Translations under genes and position numbers: made by a program
Notes under the pieces: model-generated
Databases searched by the model: none
Told to the model about the DNA's origin: nothing
Seen by the model: only the letters and a program-made list of their open reading frames with translations
Shown here: one piece after another, positions 18,584 to 26,786 of the stretch
Layout of the letters: each line of letters opens with the position of its first letter
Numbering within the stretch: position 1 is the stretch's first letter
Source: an uncultured Nitrospirales bacterium
GTDB taxonomy: Bacteria > Nitrospirota > Nitrospiria > Nitrospirales > UBA8639
DNA length: 64,000 bases
Assembly (NCBI GenBank): GCA_958295805.1
Contig: OY282373.1
Location: 1,211,001-1,275,000 of the forward strand
Direction: 5' to 3'

Positions 18584-19549
18584 ATGACGTGGCTAAAGTT
18601 AGTGGAAGGCTACATGCCGATGCAGATGATTTCGGAATTGGCGGGGTCGATTTTAGTCTTTGCGCTGGTGAACTGGGCGCTGAAGCGGGCGGGGCTGGGG
18701 GTGCCGAAATTCTGGGCGGGCGTGGGCGTGTGGCTGTACATTCAACTGTATTTGCAATATCGCATTTATCCGCCGATCCCGTTCAGCGTGCGGGCGATCT
18801 ACGGCACGGTGTCGGGGTGTGGGATCTTCATGTGGGTGTCGGGGTCGGAAGGGGAGTGGCAAGAATTCAAGCGGCCGATTCTGAACGTGATGGATGGGAT
18901 CAGCGGCGTACATCGGGCGGTGCGGCTGGGGGCGGTGATCGTGATTCCGGTAGCCTTTGGCGGGTTTGCCTACACGTCGTTTCTGCCGAGTTTTGCCGAA
19001 CCGATCGAGTTACGGACAGTGCATCCGGCGCCGCCGGCGACGACGAAAGTGCATGGCAAGACGTTTGTGCTGCAAGTGGTGGAGAACCCCTACCGGGTGA
19101 ACGCGGCGGGCAACTACGATCAGGCGTACACGGATGCGCGGATTGTGGAGCAAGCCATGGGGCGGCTGATGAAAGACGTGAACGACGCGGACTACAACCC
19201 GTGGGATCCGGACGCGGAGGGGTACATCAAGTACGTGCGGGAGGGGGGCGAGATATTCTTTCAGAACTGTCACTTCTGTCACGGGGACAACCTGAATGGG
19301 CGGGGGCTGTGGGCGTATGCGTTCAACCCGATACCGGCGAACTTCACGGACGCGGGGACGATTGCGCAGTTGCAAGAGACCTTCGTGTTCTGGCGGGTGT
19401 CGAAGGGGGGGATTGGGCTGCCGGGGGAAGGCTTTCCCTGGGCGTCGGTGATGCCGCCGTGGGAACAACACCTGACGGTGGATGAGATCTGGAAAGTCGT
19501 GATGTTTGAATACTGGCATACGGGGTATTATCCCCGGACGTGGGACTAA
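18584..19549 (+). CDS. membrane-anchored monoheme cytochrome c
   Basis: A 321-residue protein with four N-terminal TM helices (about 12-130) and a C-terminal cytochrome c domain with C229-H-F-C232-H233, followed by 'NGRGLWAYAFNPIPANFTD' and 'MPPWEQHLTVDEIWKVVMFEY', which would supply the Met ligand. An AGGAG site precedes the ATG. The base composition changes abruptly to very G-rich third positions about 50 bases into the gene and stays so to the end of the next gene. It belongs to the oxidase copy 2 operon and probably works with the diheme protein that starts 13 bases after its stop. Confidence 0.8.
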   Translation: MTWLKLVEGYMPMQMISELAGSILVFALVNWALKRAGLGVPKFWAGVGVWLYIQLYLQYRIYPPIPFSVRAIYGTVSGCGIFMWVSGSEGEWQEFKRPILNVMDGISGVHRAVRLGAVIVIPVAFGGFAYTSFLPSFAEPIELRTVHPAPPATTKVHGKTFVLQVVENPYRVNAAGNYDQAYTDARIVEQAMGRLMKDVNDADYNPWDPDAEGYIKYVREGGEIFFQNCHFCHGDNLNGRGLWAYAFNPIPANFTDAGTIAQLQETFVFWRVSKGGIGLPGEGFPWASVMPPWEQHLTVDEIWKVVMFEYWHTGYYPRTWD

Positions 19550-19562
19550 GGGAGAGGGCAGG

Positions 19563-21404
19563 ATGATGAGGAGCAAGGCAAGCAGACACGAGGGCGGGGG
19601 GAGCCGCGGCTGGGGGCTGACGGTCGGGCTGAGTCTCCTGCTGGGGCTGAGCGGGCCGGGGAGCAGTTGGGGGCAAGAAGAAGTGCTGCCCGACGGCTTC
19701 AGTCGGCAGAGTGCCCCGGCCAAGCCGGGAGCGGAGCAGATTGAAGCGGGCAAGCGGGTGTACTTTACCAAATGCGTGTGGTGCCATGGGGTCGAAGGCG
19801 CGGGGGACGGCCCGGGCGCCGTGCGGCTGTGGCCGCGGCCGCGCAACTTCAACGCGGGGACGTTCAAGATACGGCACACGGCGAGCGGGCAACTGCCGTT
19901 AATCGACATTGATCTGTTTGAGACGGTGACGCACGGGCTGCCGGGGTCGGCCATGCCGCCGTGGGAAGGCATCCTGACGGAGCAGCAGCGCCGGGACGTG
20001 CTGGCGTTTGTCACCACGCAGTTAGTCCAGGATCGGGAATGGCAAGACGAAGAATTTGAAGAATTCTTCGTCTTGGAGTTGGACAAGCTCACGCCCAAAG
20101 CCGCGACCGCGGCCTCGATTCAGCGGGGAGCCGAATTAGTCGGGGAGAAAAAATGTATCGAATGTCACGGGCTGGAAGGACGGGGAGACGGCAATGCCTT
20201 CAACCTCAAGGACGACTGGGGGTTCAGCATCCAACCGGCGGACTGGCACAAATGCTGGAACTTCCGGGGCAGTCGGCAAGACCCGTATAACGTCGCGAAC
20301 ATCTTTCGGACGTTTTCCACGGGGCTGAACGGGACGCCGATGCCGTCGTTTGCAGACACCACCAGCGTGGACGAGCGGTGGGAGATCGCCAACTACGTGA
20401 ATGCCCTGTGTGAGCGGCAGCACGACATTGACATCGCGGAGGGGCAAGTCACGGCCCCCATCGCGCAAGCGTTGGCGGAAGGAGAGCCGTTAGCCATTGA
20501 CCCGCTGACGGACAAACCGAAGAGCAACTTCGTCATTCCGGCGAAATACGTGGAAGGAGCGTTACCGGCAGACGAACACGACGAACGGTGGAAATTGGTG
20601 CCCCGGCGGTGGATTGCCCTGGGGGGGCAGATTACGCACAAGCCGCGGAACTTCGTGAACCGGCTGGACGACGTGTGGGTGCAGACCCTGTACAACGACA
20701 CGCATCTAGCCATCATGTTCCGGTGGGATGATCGGACGAAGAGCGTGCAAGCCGAAGAACCGGAGTGGGACGCCACGGAAGTGAACTTGGAGGACTATGG
20801 CGTAGCCGAACAAGGCCCGCAAGGGACGACGTTTAGCGAAGACCCATTTCATCAAGAGTCCATCGCGGCGAAACAAAAAGACGGCTATCCGGTGTACAAC
20901 GACGGGATTGCGGTGCAATTTCCGATCAAATGGCAAGAGTTGCCGGCTCCGCGGAAACCCCGGTATTTCTGGGGAGATGAGACCTTTCCGGTGGACATCA
21001 CCAAATGGACGGCCGACGGGACGCTGGGGGTATATGAAGGGACGGGCTGGGATCAAGACTTCACCGAGGTAGACTTTCAAGAGGAGGTGGAGGTGGTCAA
21101 AGCCGAGTGGGCGAATGGGCGGTGGACGGTGATCATCCAGCGGCCGCTGAAGGGGGACTATGACGAGGTGGCGTATTTAGAGCGGGGGCAATACATCCCG
21201 CTGGTGCTGTTTGCGTGGGATGGGCACAATGGGGACGTGGGGCGGAAGATGGCGGTGTCGGCGTTTTATTACCTGGTGATGGAGCCGCCGATTCCGACGA
21301 CGACGTACATCTATCCGGCGCTGATTGCGGTGGGGATGGTCATTGTGGAAGGGTGGGTGTTAGGGCGGCGGGCCAACCGACGCAAACGGAACGGGTCCGG
21401 CTGA
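19563..21404 (+). CDS. diheme cytochrome c fused to an NxrC-like (ethylbenzene dehydrogenase gamma-type) domain
   Basis: A 613-residue protein starting at ATG 19563 (GGGAGAGGGCAGG upstream; the frame extends to 19506). A signal peptide is followed by two cytochrome c domains, C71VWCH75 and C198IECH202, then from about residue 310 an EB_dh-type beta-sandwich ('IALGGQITHKPRNFVN', 'VWVQTLYNDTHLAIMFRWDD', 'GIAVQFPIKWQ', 'VLFAWDGHNGDVGRKMAVS'). A C-terminal TM helix (YIYPALIAVGMVIVEGWVL) anchors it. In NxrC-type proteins heme b is held by Met and Lys; here those positions read Trp470 (YFWGD) and Gln526 (IIQRPL), so the heme b site looks lost or changed. It probably relays electrons on the periplasmic side. 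A strong terminator follows. Confidence 0.8.
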   Translation: MMRSKASRHEGGGSRGWGLTVGLSLLLGLSGPGSSWGQEEVLPDGFSRQSAPAKPGAEQIEAGKRVYFTKCVWCHGVEGAGDGPGAVRLWPRPRNFNAGTFKIRHTASGQLPLIDIDLFETVTHGLPGSAMPPWEGILTEQQRRDVLAFVTTQLVQDREWQDEEFEEFFVLELDKLTPKAATAASIQRGAELVGEKKCIECHGLEGRGDGNAFNLKDDWGFSIQPADWHKCWNFRGSRQDPYNVANIFRTFSTGLNGTPMPSFADTTSVDERWEIANYVNALCERQHDIDIAEGQVTAPIAQALAEGEPLAIDPLTDKPKSNFVIPAKYVEGALPADEHDERWKLVPRRWIALGGQITHKPRNFVNRLDDVWVQTLYNDTHLAIMFRWDDRTKSVQAEEPEWDATEVNLEDYGVAEQGPQGTTFSEDPFHQESIAAKQKDGYPVYNDGIAVQFPIKWQELPAPRKPRYFWGDETFPVDITKWTADGTLGVYEGTGWDQDFTEVDFQEEVEVVKAEWANGRWTVIIQRPLKGDYDEVAYLERGQYIPLVLFAWDGHNGDVGRKMAVSAFYYLVMEPPIPTTTYIYPALIAVGMVIVEGWVLGRRANRRKRNGSG

Positions 21405-22100: not shown

Positions 22101-22349
22101 GTGTCCCATACATCAAACCAGCAAAATATGTTGCTCATTCACCCCGGGACTTTAGGGGACGTGGTCTTATCGCTTCCGGCCATTCGAATGCTTCGCTGGG
22201 CTTTTCCATTTCATGAGATTATTCTCTCGGCACAAGCCCAGATTGGTCGCTTGTTCCAGATGTGTGGGGAAATCGATAGTGTGTGGAGTATGGAAGGGAC
22301 GATGCTGAGTGAATTATTTCAAGACAATCCCGTGTTGCATGATTCAATT
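22101..22349 (+). pseudogene. glycosyltransferase family 9 gene, 5' part, disrupted by the transposon
   Basis: The first 83 codons of a heptosyltransferase-like protein: 'MLLIHPGTLGDVVLSLPAIRMLRWAFP' is the GT9 N-terminal signature (GDVVLSLPAI). GTG 22101 or ATG 22128 starts it. The frame runs into the inserted element at 22350 and stops within it at 22475. Its other part lies at 25998-26786. Joining 22349 to 25998, that is removing the element and one 8-bp target copy, gives one uninterrupted frame of 345 residues, the normal GT9 length. The native enzyme would have added sugars to lipopolysaccharide core. Confidence 0.85.
22342..22349 (+). repeat. 8-bp target-site duplication, left copy
   Basis: ATTCAATT immediately before the left inverted repeat; an identical copy follows the right end at 25990-25997. 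Eight bases is the usual duplication length for IS1595-family elements. Confidence 0.85.
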
Positions 22350-22372
22350 GGGAATTATATACTAGGGTTGAC
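22350..22372 (+). repeat. left terminal inverted repeat (23 bp)
   Basis: Exact reverse complement of 25967-25989. It contains the inner motif CTAGGGTTGAC, which with downstream bases could also serve as a -35 region for the transposase. Confidence 0.9.
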
Positions 22373-22422
22373 ACTGGACTCTGATTGTGCTACCCTCTTA
22401 TCAGGATTTGGAGGAAAGCACG

Positions 22423-23388
22423 ATGGCACAGAAAGCACCTGGCAAAGCGAATCGGATTGGAATCTCCCTGCTTGAATTGGCGGAAATGTTCCCCGATGAA
22501 GACGCCGCCCGGCGGTGGTTCGAGAACATCATGTGGTCGGACGGACGGCGTTGCCCGGAGTGTAAGGGAGAAAACACCTACGAGTGCAATCACGTCAAGA
22601 GCCCATATCGCTGTCGAGATTGTGGCAAGTACTTCTCGGTGAAGACCGGCACGGTCATGGCCGGTTCCCCGATCCCGCTCAAGAAGTGGGTCTATGCCAT
22701 CTATCTGGACACCACCAGCCTCAAGGGAGTGTCCAGTACGAAGCTCCGGCGAGACATCGAGGTCACGCAGAAGACCGCATGGTTCATGCTCCAGCGTATC
22801 CGGGAGGCTTTCGCGGCTGAAGGTCCCAGTGTCTTCGCGGGACCGGTGGAAGTTGACGAGACCTATATGGGTGGCGTAGAGAAGAACAAGCACGCGAACA
22901 AGAAGTTGAAGGCGGGTCGCGGACCTGTCGGAAAGACCGCGGTGGTAGGCGCGAAGGATCGGGAGACGAATCGGGTTGTTGCCCGTGTCGTGACTTCCAC
23001 CGACAAGGCCACACTCCAGGGTTTCGTCAACAAGCATACCACCGACGAAGCGTCGGTCTATACAGATGATGCCTTGGCCTATCAGGGACTAGAGAATCAC
23101 CGGTCCGTCAAGCACAGCGTCGGCGAGTACGTGGACGGCATGGTTCACACCAACGGCGTAGAGAGCTTTTGGTCTATGCTCAAGCGGGCGCACAAGGGCA
23201 CTTTCCACAAGATCAGCCCCAAGCACCTTCAGCGGTACGTCAACGAGTTTGCCGGACGACACAACATCCGCGACTTGAACACGTTGGAACAGATGGTATC
23301 CGTAGCCGCCGGACTGGTAGGCAAGGCGTTGCCCTACGACGTGTTGATCCAGGACAACGGACTGTCCTCTACGGCGCAAGAAGGGTGA
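22423..23388 (+). CDS. IS1595-family (ISXO2-like) transposase
   Basis: A 321-residue protein starting at ATG 22423 (GGAGG upstream; the frame extends to 22387). It has an N-terminal zinc ribbon (CPEC near 43-46, CRDC near 61-64: 'YRCRDCGKYFSVKTGTVM') and an ISXO2-type catalytic domain with 'VEVDETYMGG' (first Asp), 'VYTDDALAY' (second Asp) and 'GVESFWSMLKRAHKGTFHKIS' (third acidic region with the IS1595 signature). The C-terminus is 'RYVNEFAGRHNIRDLNTLEQM'. No frameshift or truncation is seen, so the element may be active. The passenger starts 4 bases after the stop. Confidence 0.92.
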   Translation: MAQKAPGKANRIGISLLELAEMFPDEDAARRWFENIMWSDGRRCPECKGENTYECNHVKSPYRCRDCGKYFSVKTGTVMAGSPIPLKKWVYAIYLDTTSLKGVSSTKLRRDIEVTQKTAWFMLQRIREAFAAEGPSVFAGPVEVDETYMGGVEKNKHANKKLKAGRGPVGKTAVVGAKDRETNRVVARVVTSTDKATLQGFVNKHTTDEASVYTDDALAYQGLENHRSVKHSVGEYVDGMVHTNGVESFWSMLKRAHKGTFHKISPKHLQRYVNEFAGRHNIRDLNTLEQMVSVAAGLVGKALPYDVLIQDNGLSSTAQEG

Positions 23389-23392
23389 CGCC

Positions 23393-25813
23393 GTGGCTCG
23401 TGGCGGGACAAAGATGGCCGCAACAGAAGTGGATGCCTACATATTCATCAAGCGCAAACTCGGCGAGCTTGGATGGAACACCCGTAACCCCGAGCGAAAC
23501 GATGAAGGGCAAGTATGGACTCAGAATGAGTGCCTGTCCAATCCGCACTTGAAGGCGTGCTTGGGTCTGAATCGACCGGAGAACATCGTCAAGATAAGTG
23601 AACGCAGTATTTGGGTTATTGAGGCGAAACGCGGCCACGACCAGATGAACACGGCCTTGGGCGAAGCGCGTGACTACGCGGCCCAGCTAAACCAAGGGAG
23701 GTATGAAGCAACGATAATCTCTGGCGTGGCGGGAAATGACGATGACGGCTATATCGTCAGCAGTCAACTTCTTGTAGGCGATGACTGGCGAGACGTACAG
23801 ATCAACGGGATCAATGCGACGGGTCTTTTGGCCGAGAACGAATGCCGGAGGCTGATAGAGGTTGGGGATCCCAATCTCGAAGATCCGCCGATCAATGAGG
23901 CTCTTTTTGTCAAAACGGCAGAACGAATTAACGAAACGCTCCATCAGGGGGCGGTCAACCCCAACGAACGCGCCAAAGTAGTTTCTGCGTTGCTTCTTTC
24001 CATGTTGACGCAGAGCGGTCCGCAAATTGATGAACGTGACACCAGCCTTCTTGTTCAAGATGTGAACAACCGCGCGGCGCGAATTTTGCTTCAGCAGCGA
24101 AAGCAAACCTTCAAAGACCATATACGACTTCCCTTACCGGCAGCCGAAGACAACCATATAAAATTGCGCCGCGCGCTGGTGGAGACGCTTCAAGACTTGC
24201 GCAGCCTGAACATTCATTCTGCCATGAGGTCGGGAGCCGACTGGCTCGGAACATTCTATGAGGTTTTTCTCAAATATGCTCGATGGGCGCAGGACCTCGG
24301 GATTGTACTGACACCGAGACACATAACCAGGTTCGCGGCGCGAGCTATCGGGATACGATCTCACGACATTGTATATGATCCGACGTGCGGAACCGGCGGG
24401 TTCCTTGTAGCGGCTTTCGAGGAAGTCAAGCGTACAAGCGGTGCCGAGCAGATAGAGGATTTCAAGCAGCATTCTGTATTCGGATTGGAGCAAGATGATG
24501 GGATTGCCGCGTTGGCAATCGTGAATATGATCTTCCGGGGTGACGGCAAAAACAACATCGAACAAGCCAACTGCTTAGTGCAACACCTCGTTCCTGATAC
24601 CAGTTCCAAAGGGGTCCGCACGGCAAAATTGTCCAAGACGCCATCGCAACATCCGCCAGTAACTCGCGTACTCATGAATCCGCCGTTTTCGCTTAAGCGC
24701 GACAAGGAATACGATTTCGTCAATCACGCACTGGCCCAGATGGTACATGGCGGACTGTTGTTCAGCATCCTACCCCATTCAGTCATGGCGAAATCGGGCC
24801 GTGCGAAGACATGGCGCGAGAACCTTCTCAAACGGCACACATTGCTTTCGGTGGTTACCCTACCCATCGACATCTTCTATCCCGTGAGTGCGCCACCAGT
24901 CGGGGTATTCGTCAAGCAAGGAGTACCCCATGACATACAGCAATCCGTCCTTTGGGTTCGGGCAGACACAGATGGTCATTTGAAGTCAAAGGGAAAGCGT
25001 CTACCGAGCTCCTTGACAACGAACCGCTTAGAAGACTGCCTGCCGACGGTTCGAGCATTTCTCGACAACCCGAGTATTCATGTGGATGACCAGCCTAGGT
25101 TCATGAAGGCCGCTCCGCTCAATGCCGACGACGATCTCCTAGAGCTTGTGCCGGAAGTCTACCTAGAGCAGGAACCCCTTAGCCCCGAAGACATCCTCTC
25201 GGGTGTTGACAGCATTCTACGGGATGCGTCCGCGTTTCTTGTTCGCAACACGGACTGTATCGACCGGCTTTTAGCTGAGTTGAACAAGCGTCCGCGGCTC
25301 GCGTCGCCACAGTCCCCGCACGTGCAAGCGACCGAATGGCTAGACCGGCGGCTGGACGATCTGTTCATTCTGACACGCGGCGATTTTCATTCCATCAAGG
25401 AACTCGCGGATGGGCCATGTGCGACGGTATCAAGAACAGAAGCAGACAATGGTGTTGTCGGCTATTTTGAGCAGCCGGAGGGTAGCGTCTTGCATCCGTT
25501 AGGCAGGATTACCGTAAGCACTGTGAGCGGAGATGCTTTCGTCCAGGCGGTACAATTTCAGGCCACGGACAACGTGGTGGTTTGTGTTCCTCGGCAACCC
25601 ATGCGTCGTGCCAGCGCGTACTTCATCGCCGCTCTCATAAATAGTCAGAAATGGCGTTATGGCTATGGTCGGCAACCGTATGTGAAAAAGCTGTCTGCGC
25701 TGACAATCCGACTTCCGTGGCGTAGTGACGCCCTTGATGAAACGTACATTGAGCAGGTGGTACAATCTCAACCCTATTGGCAATTCGTGAGTCGTGGAGA
25801 AGATCATCAATGA
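23393..25813 (+). CDS. single-chain restriction-modification-like protein: nuclease-like domain, N6-adenine methylase, target-recognition region
   Basis: An 806-residue protein (GTG 23393; ATG 23414 alternative). Residues about 10-130 resemble the N-terminal nuclease domain of type I R proteins, with 'WVIEAKRGH' giving the E77-x-K79 of a PD-(D/E)xK motif; the preceding position usually held by Asp reads Glu-Asn in 'RPENIV', so activity is uncertain. Residues about 270-560 are an HsdM-like N6 methylase with 'YDPTCGTGGFL' (SAM motif I, near 330) and 'VLMNPPFS' (NPPF catalytic motif, near 428). The last 200 residues look like a target-recognition/specificity region. The layout is that of type IIG-like fusions. 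It is cargo of the transposon, and codon usage differs from chromosomal neighbours. Confidence 0.75.
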   Translation: MARGGTKMAATEVDAYIFIKRKLGELGWNTRNPERNDEGQVWTQNECLSNPHLKACLGLNRPENIVKISERSIWVIEAKRGHDQMNTALGEARDYAAQLNQGRYEATIISGVAGNDDDGYIVSSQLLVGDDWRDVQINGINATGLLAENECRRLIEVGDPNLEDPPINEALFVKTAERINETLHQGAVNPNERAKVVSALLLSMLTQSGPQIDERDTSLLVQDVNNRAARILLQQRKQTFKDHIRLPLPAAEDNHIKLRRALVETLQDLRSLNIHSAMRSGADWLGTFYEVFLKYARWAQDLGIVLTPRHITRFAARAIGIRSHDIVYDPTCGTGGFLVAAFEEVKRTSGAEQIEDFKQHSVFGLEQDDGIAALAIVNMIFRGDGKNNIEQANCLVQHLVPDTSSKGVRTAKLSKTPSQHPPVTRVLMNPPFSLKRDKEYDFVNHALAQMVHGGLLFSILPHSVMAKSGRAKTWRENLLKRHTLLSVVTLPIDIFYPVSAPPVGVFVKQGVPHDIQQSVLWVRADTDGHLKSKGKRLPSSLTTNRLEDCLPTVRAFLDNPSIHVDDQPRFMKAAPLNADDDLLELVPEVYLEQEPLSPEDILSGVDSILRDASAFLVRNTDCIDRLLAELNKRPRLASPQSPHVQATEWLDRRLDDLFILTRGDFHSIKELADGPCATVSRTEADNGVVGYFEQPEGSVLHPLGRITVSTVSGDAFVQAVQFQATDNVVVCVPRQPMRRASAYFIAALINSQKWRYGYGRQPYVKKLSALTIRLPWRSDALDETYIEQVVQSQPYWQFVSRGEDHQ

Positions 25814-25977
25814 GCAAAACCGACAAGCCACTGAAAGGCCACAAGGCTGACTACAGGGGCGCGAAGCCGGAGCAAGTAGCCCGCGCCGTGCTGAAGTATC
25901 GTCCTGCAAAGGATGGAGCCGCCAGCCTGTCACGCTCCAAACAGGCTAGCAGTCCGCGTCCTGCTCGTCAACCCTAG
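25810..25977 (+). CDS. 55-residue basic passenger protein
   Basis: ATG 25810 overlaps the stop of the methylase gene (ATGA), so it is translationally coupled. The product contains 'KPLKGHKADYRGAKPEQVARAVLKYRPA' and a basic Ser/Arg/Pro-rich tail that runs almost to the right inverted repeat. I do not recognise the family. It could be a small regulator or an antidote-like partner of the passenger enzyme, but that is speculation; the position alone supports a link. Confidence 0.5.
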   Translation: MSKTDKPLKGHKADYRGAKPEQVARAVLKYRPAKDGAASLSRSKQASSPRPARQP

Positions 25978-25989
25978 TATATAATTCCC
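25967..25989 (-). repeat. right terminal inverted repeat (23 bp)
   Basis: Exact reverse complement of 22350-22372 and the outer end of the transposon, followed directly by the right target duplication. Confidence 0.9.
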
Positions 25990-25997
25990 ATTCAATT
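25990..25997 (+). repeat. 8-bp target-site duplication, right copy
   Basis: ATTCAATT, identical to 22342-22349. Confidence 0.85.
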
Positions 25998-26786
25998 CAT
26001 GAAACGTTATCCCGAACCACCCATGTGGTTGGATGGCTCCATGATGCGGACCATTGTCTGGCGAAAAATTTCCGAAATCTTGGAATTCAACAGATCACCC
26101 TCATTTCGCCAAAAGATCAAAGGCTTCAATCCTACCATATGTCGAACCGATATCTGGACATCATCAAACCATGGGTCGCGTCCCGTGGAGGGAGTTGCAA
26201 TCTTTTTTCCCCTTTGACGATGAATTGGTCAAGATACGTCGATCCTCAAGATGACGACGTTGCTCATGTGGAATATGAAAAAATCGTGTTCGTCCATGCA
26301 GGTAGCGGAAGTCCACACAAGTGTCTTCCATCTGAAACATTAGCGAGTCTGGTAGGTCAAATTGCAGGCAATCTTCACGCCAGGGTTTTGCTCTGCGAAG
26401 GTCCGGATGATCGGGATCGTGTAGAGCGCCTTCTGTATGATATAGGTCATCAATCATTTGAGATTCTCCGTGAGAAAAATCTCGTCGAGATGGCACACTT
26501 CCTCAGTCGAGCGGATTTATTTTTTGGGCATGATTCTGGTTTAACGCATTTAGCCGCCGTTTTGGGTGTGCCGACCGTGGTTATTTTTGGTCCGACAGAT
26601 CCTGAACAATGGCGGCCGTTTGGAGAACACGTGACCGTGGTGCAAGGTCAGACGTGCCTGTGCCGGACATGGTCACAGGTACAGGCATGCGAAAATAAAG
26701 TATGCTTAACTTCTGCCGTTGACGAGGTGATGCACGTCATCAAAAAGCAGTTAGCTCACGTCGACTCACGTCGGTCCTTCGCATAG
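25998..26786 (+). pseudogene. glycosyltransferase family 9 gene, 3' part
   Basis: This is the C-terminal 262 codons of the gene split at 22349. It contains the GT9 C-terminal signature: 'IVFVHAGSGSPHKCLPSETLASL' (nucleotide-sugar site), 'MAHFLSRADLFFGHDSGLTHLAAVLGVPTVVIFGPTDPEQW' and 'RPFGEHVTVVQG'. No start with a ribosome-binding site is evident after the insertion, so the piece is probably not made or not active. Loss of this enzyme would shorten or alter the lipopolysaccharide unless a paralogue compensates. Confidence 0.85.

Follow-up and report, generated by a model that had tools for sequence, protein, structure and literature searches.

A passenger transposon of the IS1595 family with an exchangeable cargo slot and a conserved microprotein gene

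The window analysed here, a stretch of 64,000 nucleotides from the genome of an uncultured Nitrospirales bacterium, contains what is very probably a complete passenger transposon of the IS1595 family, in which a frame (the left end with the transposase gene on one side, a microprotein gene with the right end on the other) encloses an exchangeable cargo slot, the cargo being type IIG-like and the microprotein presumably acting in transposition. The boundaries of the element were read to the base (22350-25989; 3,640 bp). The open reading frames that a preliminary description of this DNA had reported were right, but a third gene (25810-25977) had been missed, and it is this micro-ORF that proved the most informative part of the element. 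The features of the locus, with the evidence for each, are the following:

22101-22349, + strand: GT9 gene, 5′ part, 83 codons (joined frame and orthologue alignment)
22342-22349, no strand: left target-site duplication, ATTCAATT (direct reading)
22350-22372, + strand: left 23-bp terminal inverted repeat, GGGAATTATATACTAGGGTTGAC (read directly; genome search)
22423-23388, + strand: IS1595-family transposase, 321 aa (Pfam, NCBIfam, motifs)
23393-25813, + strand: cargo, single-chain type IIG-like restriction-modification protein, 806 aa (Pfam, PADLOC, homologues, motifs)
25810-25977, + strand: microprotein, 55 aa, with the motif YxGAxPEQVAxAxLxYRP (blastp, iterated profile, motif)
25967-25989, - strand: right 23-bp terminal inverted repeat, exact reverse complement of GGGAATTATATACTAGGGTTGAC (read directly; genome search)
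25990-25997, no strand: right target-site duplication, ATTCAATT (direct reading)
25998-26786, + strand: GT9 gene, 3′ part, 262 codons and stop (Pfam Glyco_transf_9, joined frame, orthologues)

The element, its ends and the interrupted gene

The 8-bp target-site duplication is perfect and lies on the outer edges of the 23-bp inverted repeats, which are perfect as well; such a combination is far beyond chance. The repeats start with GG, which, together with the 8-bp duplication, is typical of the IS1595 family. When the 2.9-Mb single-contig genome was searched for the 23-mer, with up to three mismatches allowed, only two sites were found, and both belong to this element. The sole further transposase trace of the family found in the genome is a remnant of another IS1595 transposase (44 codons, 52% identity; G000:C1:1436305-1436436, locus L002). 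The transposase gene is preceded by a GGAGG-like ribosome site, and the DDE motifs of its product (VDETYMGG, VYTDDALAY and HTNGVESFWSMLKR; residues 144, 212 and 242) are intact. Pfam recognized the DDE_Tnp_IS1595 domain (E = 7.9e-41), the NCBIfam model transpos_IS1595 scored 192.6 bits (cut-off, 75), and the N-terminal zinc ribbon, a trait of all IS1595 groups except IS1016, scored 33.1 bits (Pfam Zn_ribbon_IS1595; cut-off, 25.4). The assignment to IS1595 made in the preliminary description is supported by these scores and motifs, and the ends, duplication and boundaries that it had given were confirmed to the base by direct reading. Judging from the family, the transposase would recognize the 23-bp ends and insert the element with an 8-bp stagger, which would have left both the duplication and a broken GT9 gene.

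Removal in silico of the element and one copy of the duplication gave a closed GT9 frame of 345 aa, with the junction after codon 83. The interrupted gene has a Glyco_transf_9 domain match of 80.6 bits. Over codons 4-340 the joined protein aligns with intact orthologues from two genomes of the same genus (54% and 52% identity), in both cases with no gap across the junction, and from one genome of the same family (40% identity). All three intact genes sit between a mobA-like gene and argS, as does the interrupted one. Thus, the proposed splitting of a GT9 gene is borne out by full-length orthologues across the junction, and an empty site with the same neighbours does exist in three relatives. 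The accompanying proposal, that loss of a heptosyltransferase may alter the cell surface, fared less well. No specific heptosyltransferase model reached its cut-off on the 3′ fragment (TIGR02193, LPS heptosyltransferase, gave 62.7 bits against a cut-off of 185.3, with the 3′ fragment alone scored), other GT9 genes are present in the same genome, and a strong full-length match is absent from most of 13 same-genus genomes. In several of these (G001, G003-G006, G009 and G011-G013) no GT9 match was found at all, which indicates that the gene family was lost repeatedly in the genus. Upstream of the interrupted locus (window positions 18584-21404) lie genes for c-type cytochrome-like membrane or periplasmic proteins; the neighbourhood of the 632-aa product encoded there is conserved in relatives.

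The cargo slot and its contents

In 84,980 species genomes, at least 582 relatives of the transposase were detected. The best 80 originate for the most part from metagenome-assembled genomes, which belong to many phyla (Thaumarchaeota and Chloroflexi among them) and several of which are explicitly those of sponge symbionts. Element ends were set jointly by inverted-repeat similarity, terminal motif and duplication, by which 55 elements were delimited, 47 with perfect 8-bp duplications (the duplication itself being part of the scoring). Another 20 elements came from 40 Nitrospirota loci, with perfect duplications in 20 of 20. The comparison therefore comprised 76 elements, i.e., 75 relatives and the element of the window.

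Cargo had been called unusual for the IS1595 family, which does not hold for this clade: passenger ORFs of 110 aa or more are present in 70 of the 75 comparison elements. Among 106 passenger ORFs of that size, Pfam identified 15 N6_N4 methylases, 10 HNH nucleases, five C5 methylases and three N6_Mtase domains, along with single matches to EcoRI-methylase, Eco57I, MvaI/BcnI, Vsr, GmrSD_N, KilA-N, P63C and Beta-protein. The remaining cargo includes lipoprotein-like secreted proteins, often encoded on the opposite strand, and DUF3800 proteins. In L012, L018, L031 and L041, a single lipoprotein-like secreted protein with a ACGGGGGG-type signal end is the only cargo, on the strand opposite to the transposase. 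DUF3800 cargo recurs in elements with GGCATTAATATAC ends (L153, L163, L165 and other Nitrospirota elements).

How cargo and frame relate is evident from L003 and L004, which are 89% identical over bp 1-1078 and 92% identical over the last 146 bp, with nothing alignable between. The same swap pattern was observed at lower identity for L134/L136, L135/L136, L014/L013 and L014/L026. The elements thus have a frame of two conserved modules, one formed by the left end and the transposase, the other by the microprotein and the right end, and the cargo in the slot between them can be exchanged. Swapping would result from recombination between these modules or from imprecise capture between them. In L134, L061 and L016, coding repeats of minisatellite type (RRAEEQKS, AEQPNSRT and LAVGRWP) lie inside the slot or separate the transposase from the cargo; they might mark the points where cargo was joined.

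The element could alternatively be seen as chiefly a mobile anti-phage defence unit which is spread by its cargo. DNA methyltransferases are carried by about one third of the sampled elements (25 of 76, labelled partly by domain matches and partly by sequence reading), and many have HNH, Mrr, MvaI/BcnI, Vsr or GIY-YIG nuclease domains. However, two thirds carry other cargo, such as the secreted and DUF3800 proteins mentioned above, the defensive activity is a predicted one, and the sampling of elements leans to sponge-symbiont genomes, all of which makes this view rather unlikely as an account of the element as a whole. A frame with exchangeable cargo is still compatible with effects of individual passengers: a restriction-modification gene would favour its own retention, its loss being punished, and it may shield the host from phage.

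In the window, the cargo gene begins 4 bp past the stop codon of the transposase gene. Its product contains an N6_Mtase domain (residues 282-556; 103 bits) with the motifs DPTCGTGGF and NPPF, and its best PADLOC match is REase_MTase_IIG (E = 1.2e-42), in agreement with the restriction-modification-like passenger of the preliminary description. On Arthrobacter plasmids, residues 277-791 find their counterpart (tblastn) in a methylase gene and a neighbouring gene for a specificity subunit, the C-terminal, specificity-like region matching the latter. The protein is probably a single-chain nuclease-methylase-specificity protein, and hence type IIG-like, with the methylase domain shown directly and the rest predicted via homologues. 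It would be an orphan methylase if its nuclease part were dead, and N6_Mtase was indeed the sole domain found when the 806-aa protein was scanned with Pfam, with no nuclease and no Methylase_S match. Despite this, we consider an orphan methylase improbable: the N-terminus carries a nuclease-like stretch, VIEAKR, which falls inside an alignment with an Acinetobacter plasmid protein bearing HSDR_N (E = 7.9e-8). None of the viral contigs searched matched the cargo protein, and an AlphaFold model of it alone was unusable (mean pLDDT, 36.6).

The microprotein and its proposed role

The micro-ORF overlaps the cargo gene by an ATGA, is preceded by GGAG and has its stop codon within the right inverted repeat. 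Its motif was first seen by blastp against L003 (E = 2e-6). After profile iteration over six frames, this class-1 microprotein was found in 22 elements, on the transposase strand in all; a class-2 microprotein is present in seven of seven elements with GGCATTAATATAC ends and a class-3 microprotein in six of seven with GGCGATTATG-type ends. Thus, iterated profiles detected a microprotein in 35 elements, always on the + strand. Related versions, recognized by a related profile or by motif reading, were found in 14 more; some of these have a PRGRP or RGRP core resembling an AT hook, and others form the N-terminal part of the first cargo protein. In total, at least 49 of the 76 elements encode a microprotein; in about 27 it was not recognizable. 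Profile comparison did not join classes 1, 2 and 3; a common function is therefore an assumption, and no single homologous family is claimed. Neither Pfam nor NCBIfam had a curated match for any microprotein scanned, a profile search against the PDB gave weak and unconvincing matches only, and AlphaFold predicted, with low confidence (mean pLDDT, 63.9), one short helix (residues 20-28). In the plasmid collection, the microprotein of the window had chance matches only, and examples of classes 2 and 1c had none.

Some further small reading frames were noticed. In L010, L013, L014, L026 and L066 the last ORF enters the right inverted repeat, where TATATAA provides the stop, resulting in shared C-termini such as QSSI. 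Plasmid elements of three Alphaproteobacteria (Roseomonas marmotae, Methylobacterium oryzae and Pseudosulfitobacter pseudonitzschiae) encode small "hypothetical" proteins, alike by eye, that possibly represent a fourth class of microprotein. At G196:C69, G228:C1 and G233:C3, a weak class-3-like micro-ORF just downstream of the transposase gene lies on the opposite strand, which suggests another arrangement.

Linkage of the microprotein to the transposase was also assessed in whole genomes, in searches that include training members. Across 32 genomes, 30 of 39 class-1 matches had a listed IS1595 transposase no more than 5 kb away (at least 26 of the 30 lying downstream of it and on the same strand), where about one was expected by chance according to our estimate. 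In 60 other genomes, four of five class-2 and 10 of 12 class-3 matches were near a transposase, as were about seven of 10 class-2 and class-3 matches outside the alignments. On the transposase tree, microprotein class (with subclass labels that had been fixed from the sequences ahead of tree building) requires eight changes over 49 rows, close to the minimum possible of six and far from the values for shuffled labels (mean, 33; minimum, 28). Cargo type, scored as methyltransferase or not, requires 16 changes (shuffled mean, 21; minimum, 17) and is therefore far less tied to the transposase than microprotein class is. The fact that the ends were kept while the middle was swapped (L003/L004), and that class tracks the transposase tree, places the microprotein in the frame and not in the cargo.

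It is consequently very unlikely that the micro-ORF belongs to the cargo, for instance as a control or protective protein of the restriction-modification enzyme. This idea draws on the ATGA overlap, due to which the two genes are probably translationally coupled, and on fusions: the motif is found at the C-terminus of the last ORF in L010 and L054, in L054 that of a methylase, and at the N-terminus of the first cargo protein in L073, L074 and L082. Yet the same microprotein stands beside unrelated cargo (L003 versus L004, L033 and L018). Moreover, it is retained in L005 and L006, cargo-free elements of 1,444 bp (L005 of Pseudohongiella type) at different sites and with different duplications, a third copy of which is present in the same genome. 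A cargo-specific function was rejected for the class as a whole on account of these cargo-free copies.

Least probable of all, if only slightly less so, is conservation of the right end at the DNA level with an incidental reading frame: subterminal binding sites of the transposase could be located where many class-1 elements have the gene (54-119 bp from the end), but in class 3 and in L005/L006 it lies directly behind the transposase gene, hundreds of bases from the end, the motif also forms N- or C-terminal parts of longer proteins, and the codon-position bias, on which this candidate was rejected, is seen in each class. In all classes, third codon positions differ more than the first two do, and mean pN is much lower than pS (e.g., 0.33 versus 0.69 in class 2). 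The microprotein thus evolves as a protein.

Because it tracks transposase and ends and not cargo, we infer that the microprotein takes part in transposition and not in restriction, perhaps as a transposition accessory; it might be a DNA- or transposase-binding accessory or a regulator. DNA binding is plausible, as far as sequence can tell, for the AT-hook versions and for the basic ones, such as those of the window and of L135. The RGRP core is present in the microproteins of L034, L039, L050, L056, L057, L134, L135 and L136, and absent from that of the window. Several microproteins are acidic (L014, L028 and L180), so DNA binding would not be general, and the broader possibility is that the microproteins bind a protein, be it the transposase or some other. 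By extension, the IS1595 transposons of this large clade may form a two-protein system, a transposase and a dedicated microprotein acting in transposition, that serves as a chassis with an exchangeable cargo slot and as a main carrier of restriction-modification genes in symbiont communities; this generalization is tentative, and we hold it to be somewhat less probable than its negation.

Relation to known systems

IS1595 elements are widespread, and published descriptions treat them as insertion sequences with one gene. With a second conserved gene, tiny enough to be passed over by many gene finders, both the annotation of IS1595 elements and the study of their transposition would change, and a structure of frame and slot accounts for the way in which one insertion sequence can come with cargo that keeps changing. 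The DNA methyltransferases so often present as cargo offer a concrete route by which restriction-modification genes could spread among co-living microbes; sponge symbionts are an example, their genomes being known for an abundance of transposases and defence genes (PMC5099237). A literature search, carried out without the founding IS1595 paper, found no description of the microprotein, which is probably a new IS1595 component.

The elements sampled here share with the described IS1595 family the DDE_Tnp_IS1595 domain, the zinc ribbon, GG termini and 8-bp duplications (PMC8101967). That family was described with a single transposase gene, whereas a second conserved gene is present in most elements of our sample. 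This touches the published description, in which the transposase is the only conserved gene, and not the membership of the transposase in the family. An IS1595 element with a passenger is, as such, of a kind already known as tIS, exemplified by MTnSag1 (= tISSag10) and tISCpe8 (PMC5704250). Common to these and the present element are an IS1595 transposase, terminal inverted repeats, a target duplication and internal passenger genes; here, too, a passenger that transposition would not need lies between the ends, given that the 806-aa gene is located inside them and cargo-free relatives exist. The tIS elements differ in being described with a lincomycin-resistance passenger (tISCpe8) and with mobilization by conjugative elements (PMC5704250), whereas the passenger here is a type IIG-like restriction-modification gene, accompanied by a gene for a microprotein, and no mobilization gene was seen. 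As in Type IIG enzymes, a methylase and a nuclease-like part share one chain in the cargo protein, with no helicase; unlike in those enzymes, its nuclease and specificity parts are supported through homologues only. Finally, a small accessory gene that stays while passengers change is reminiscent of Tn3-family transposons with toxin-antitoxin pairs in their transposition module (PMC7157771), but the gene found here encodes a single tiny protein of unrelated sequence, with no toxin partner seen.
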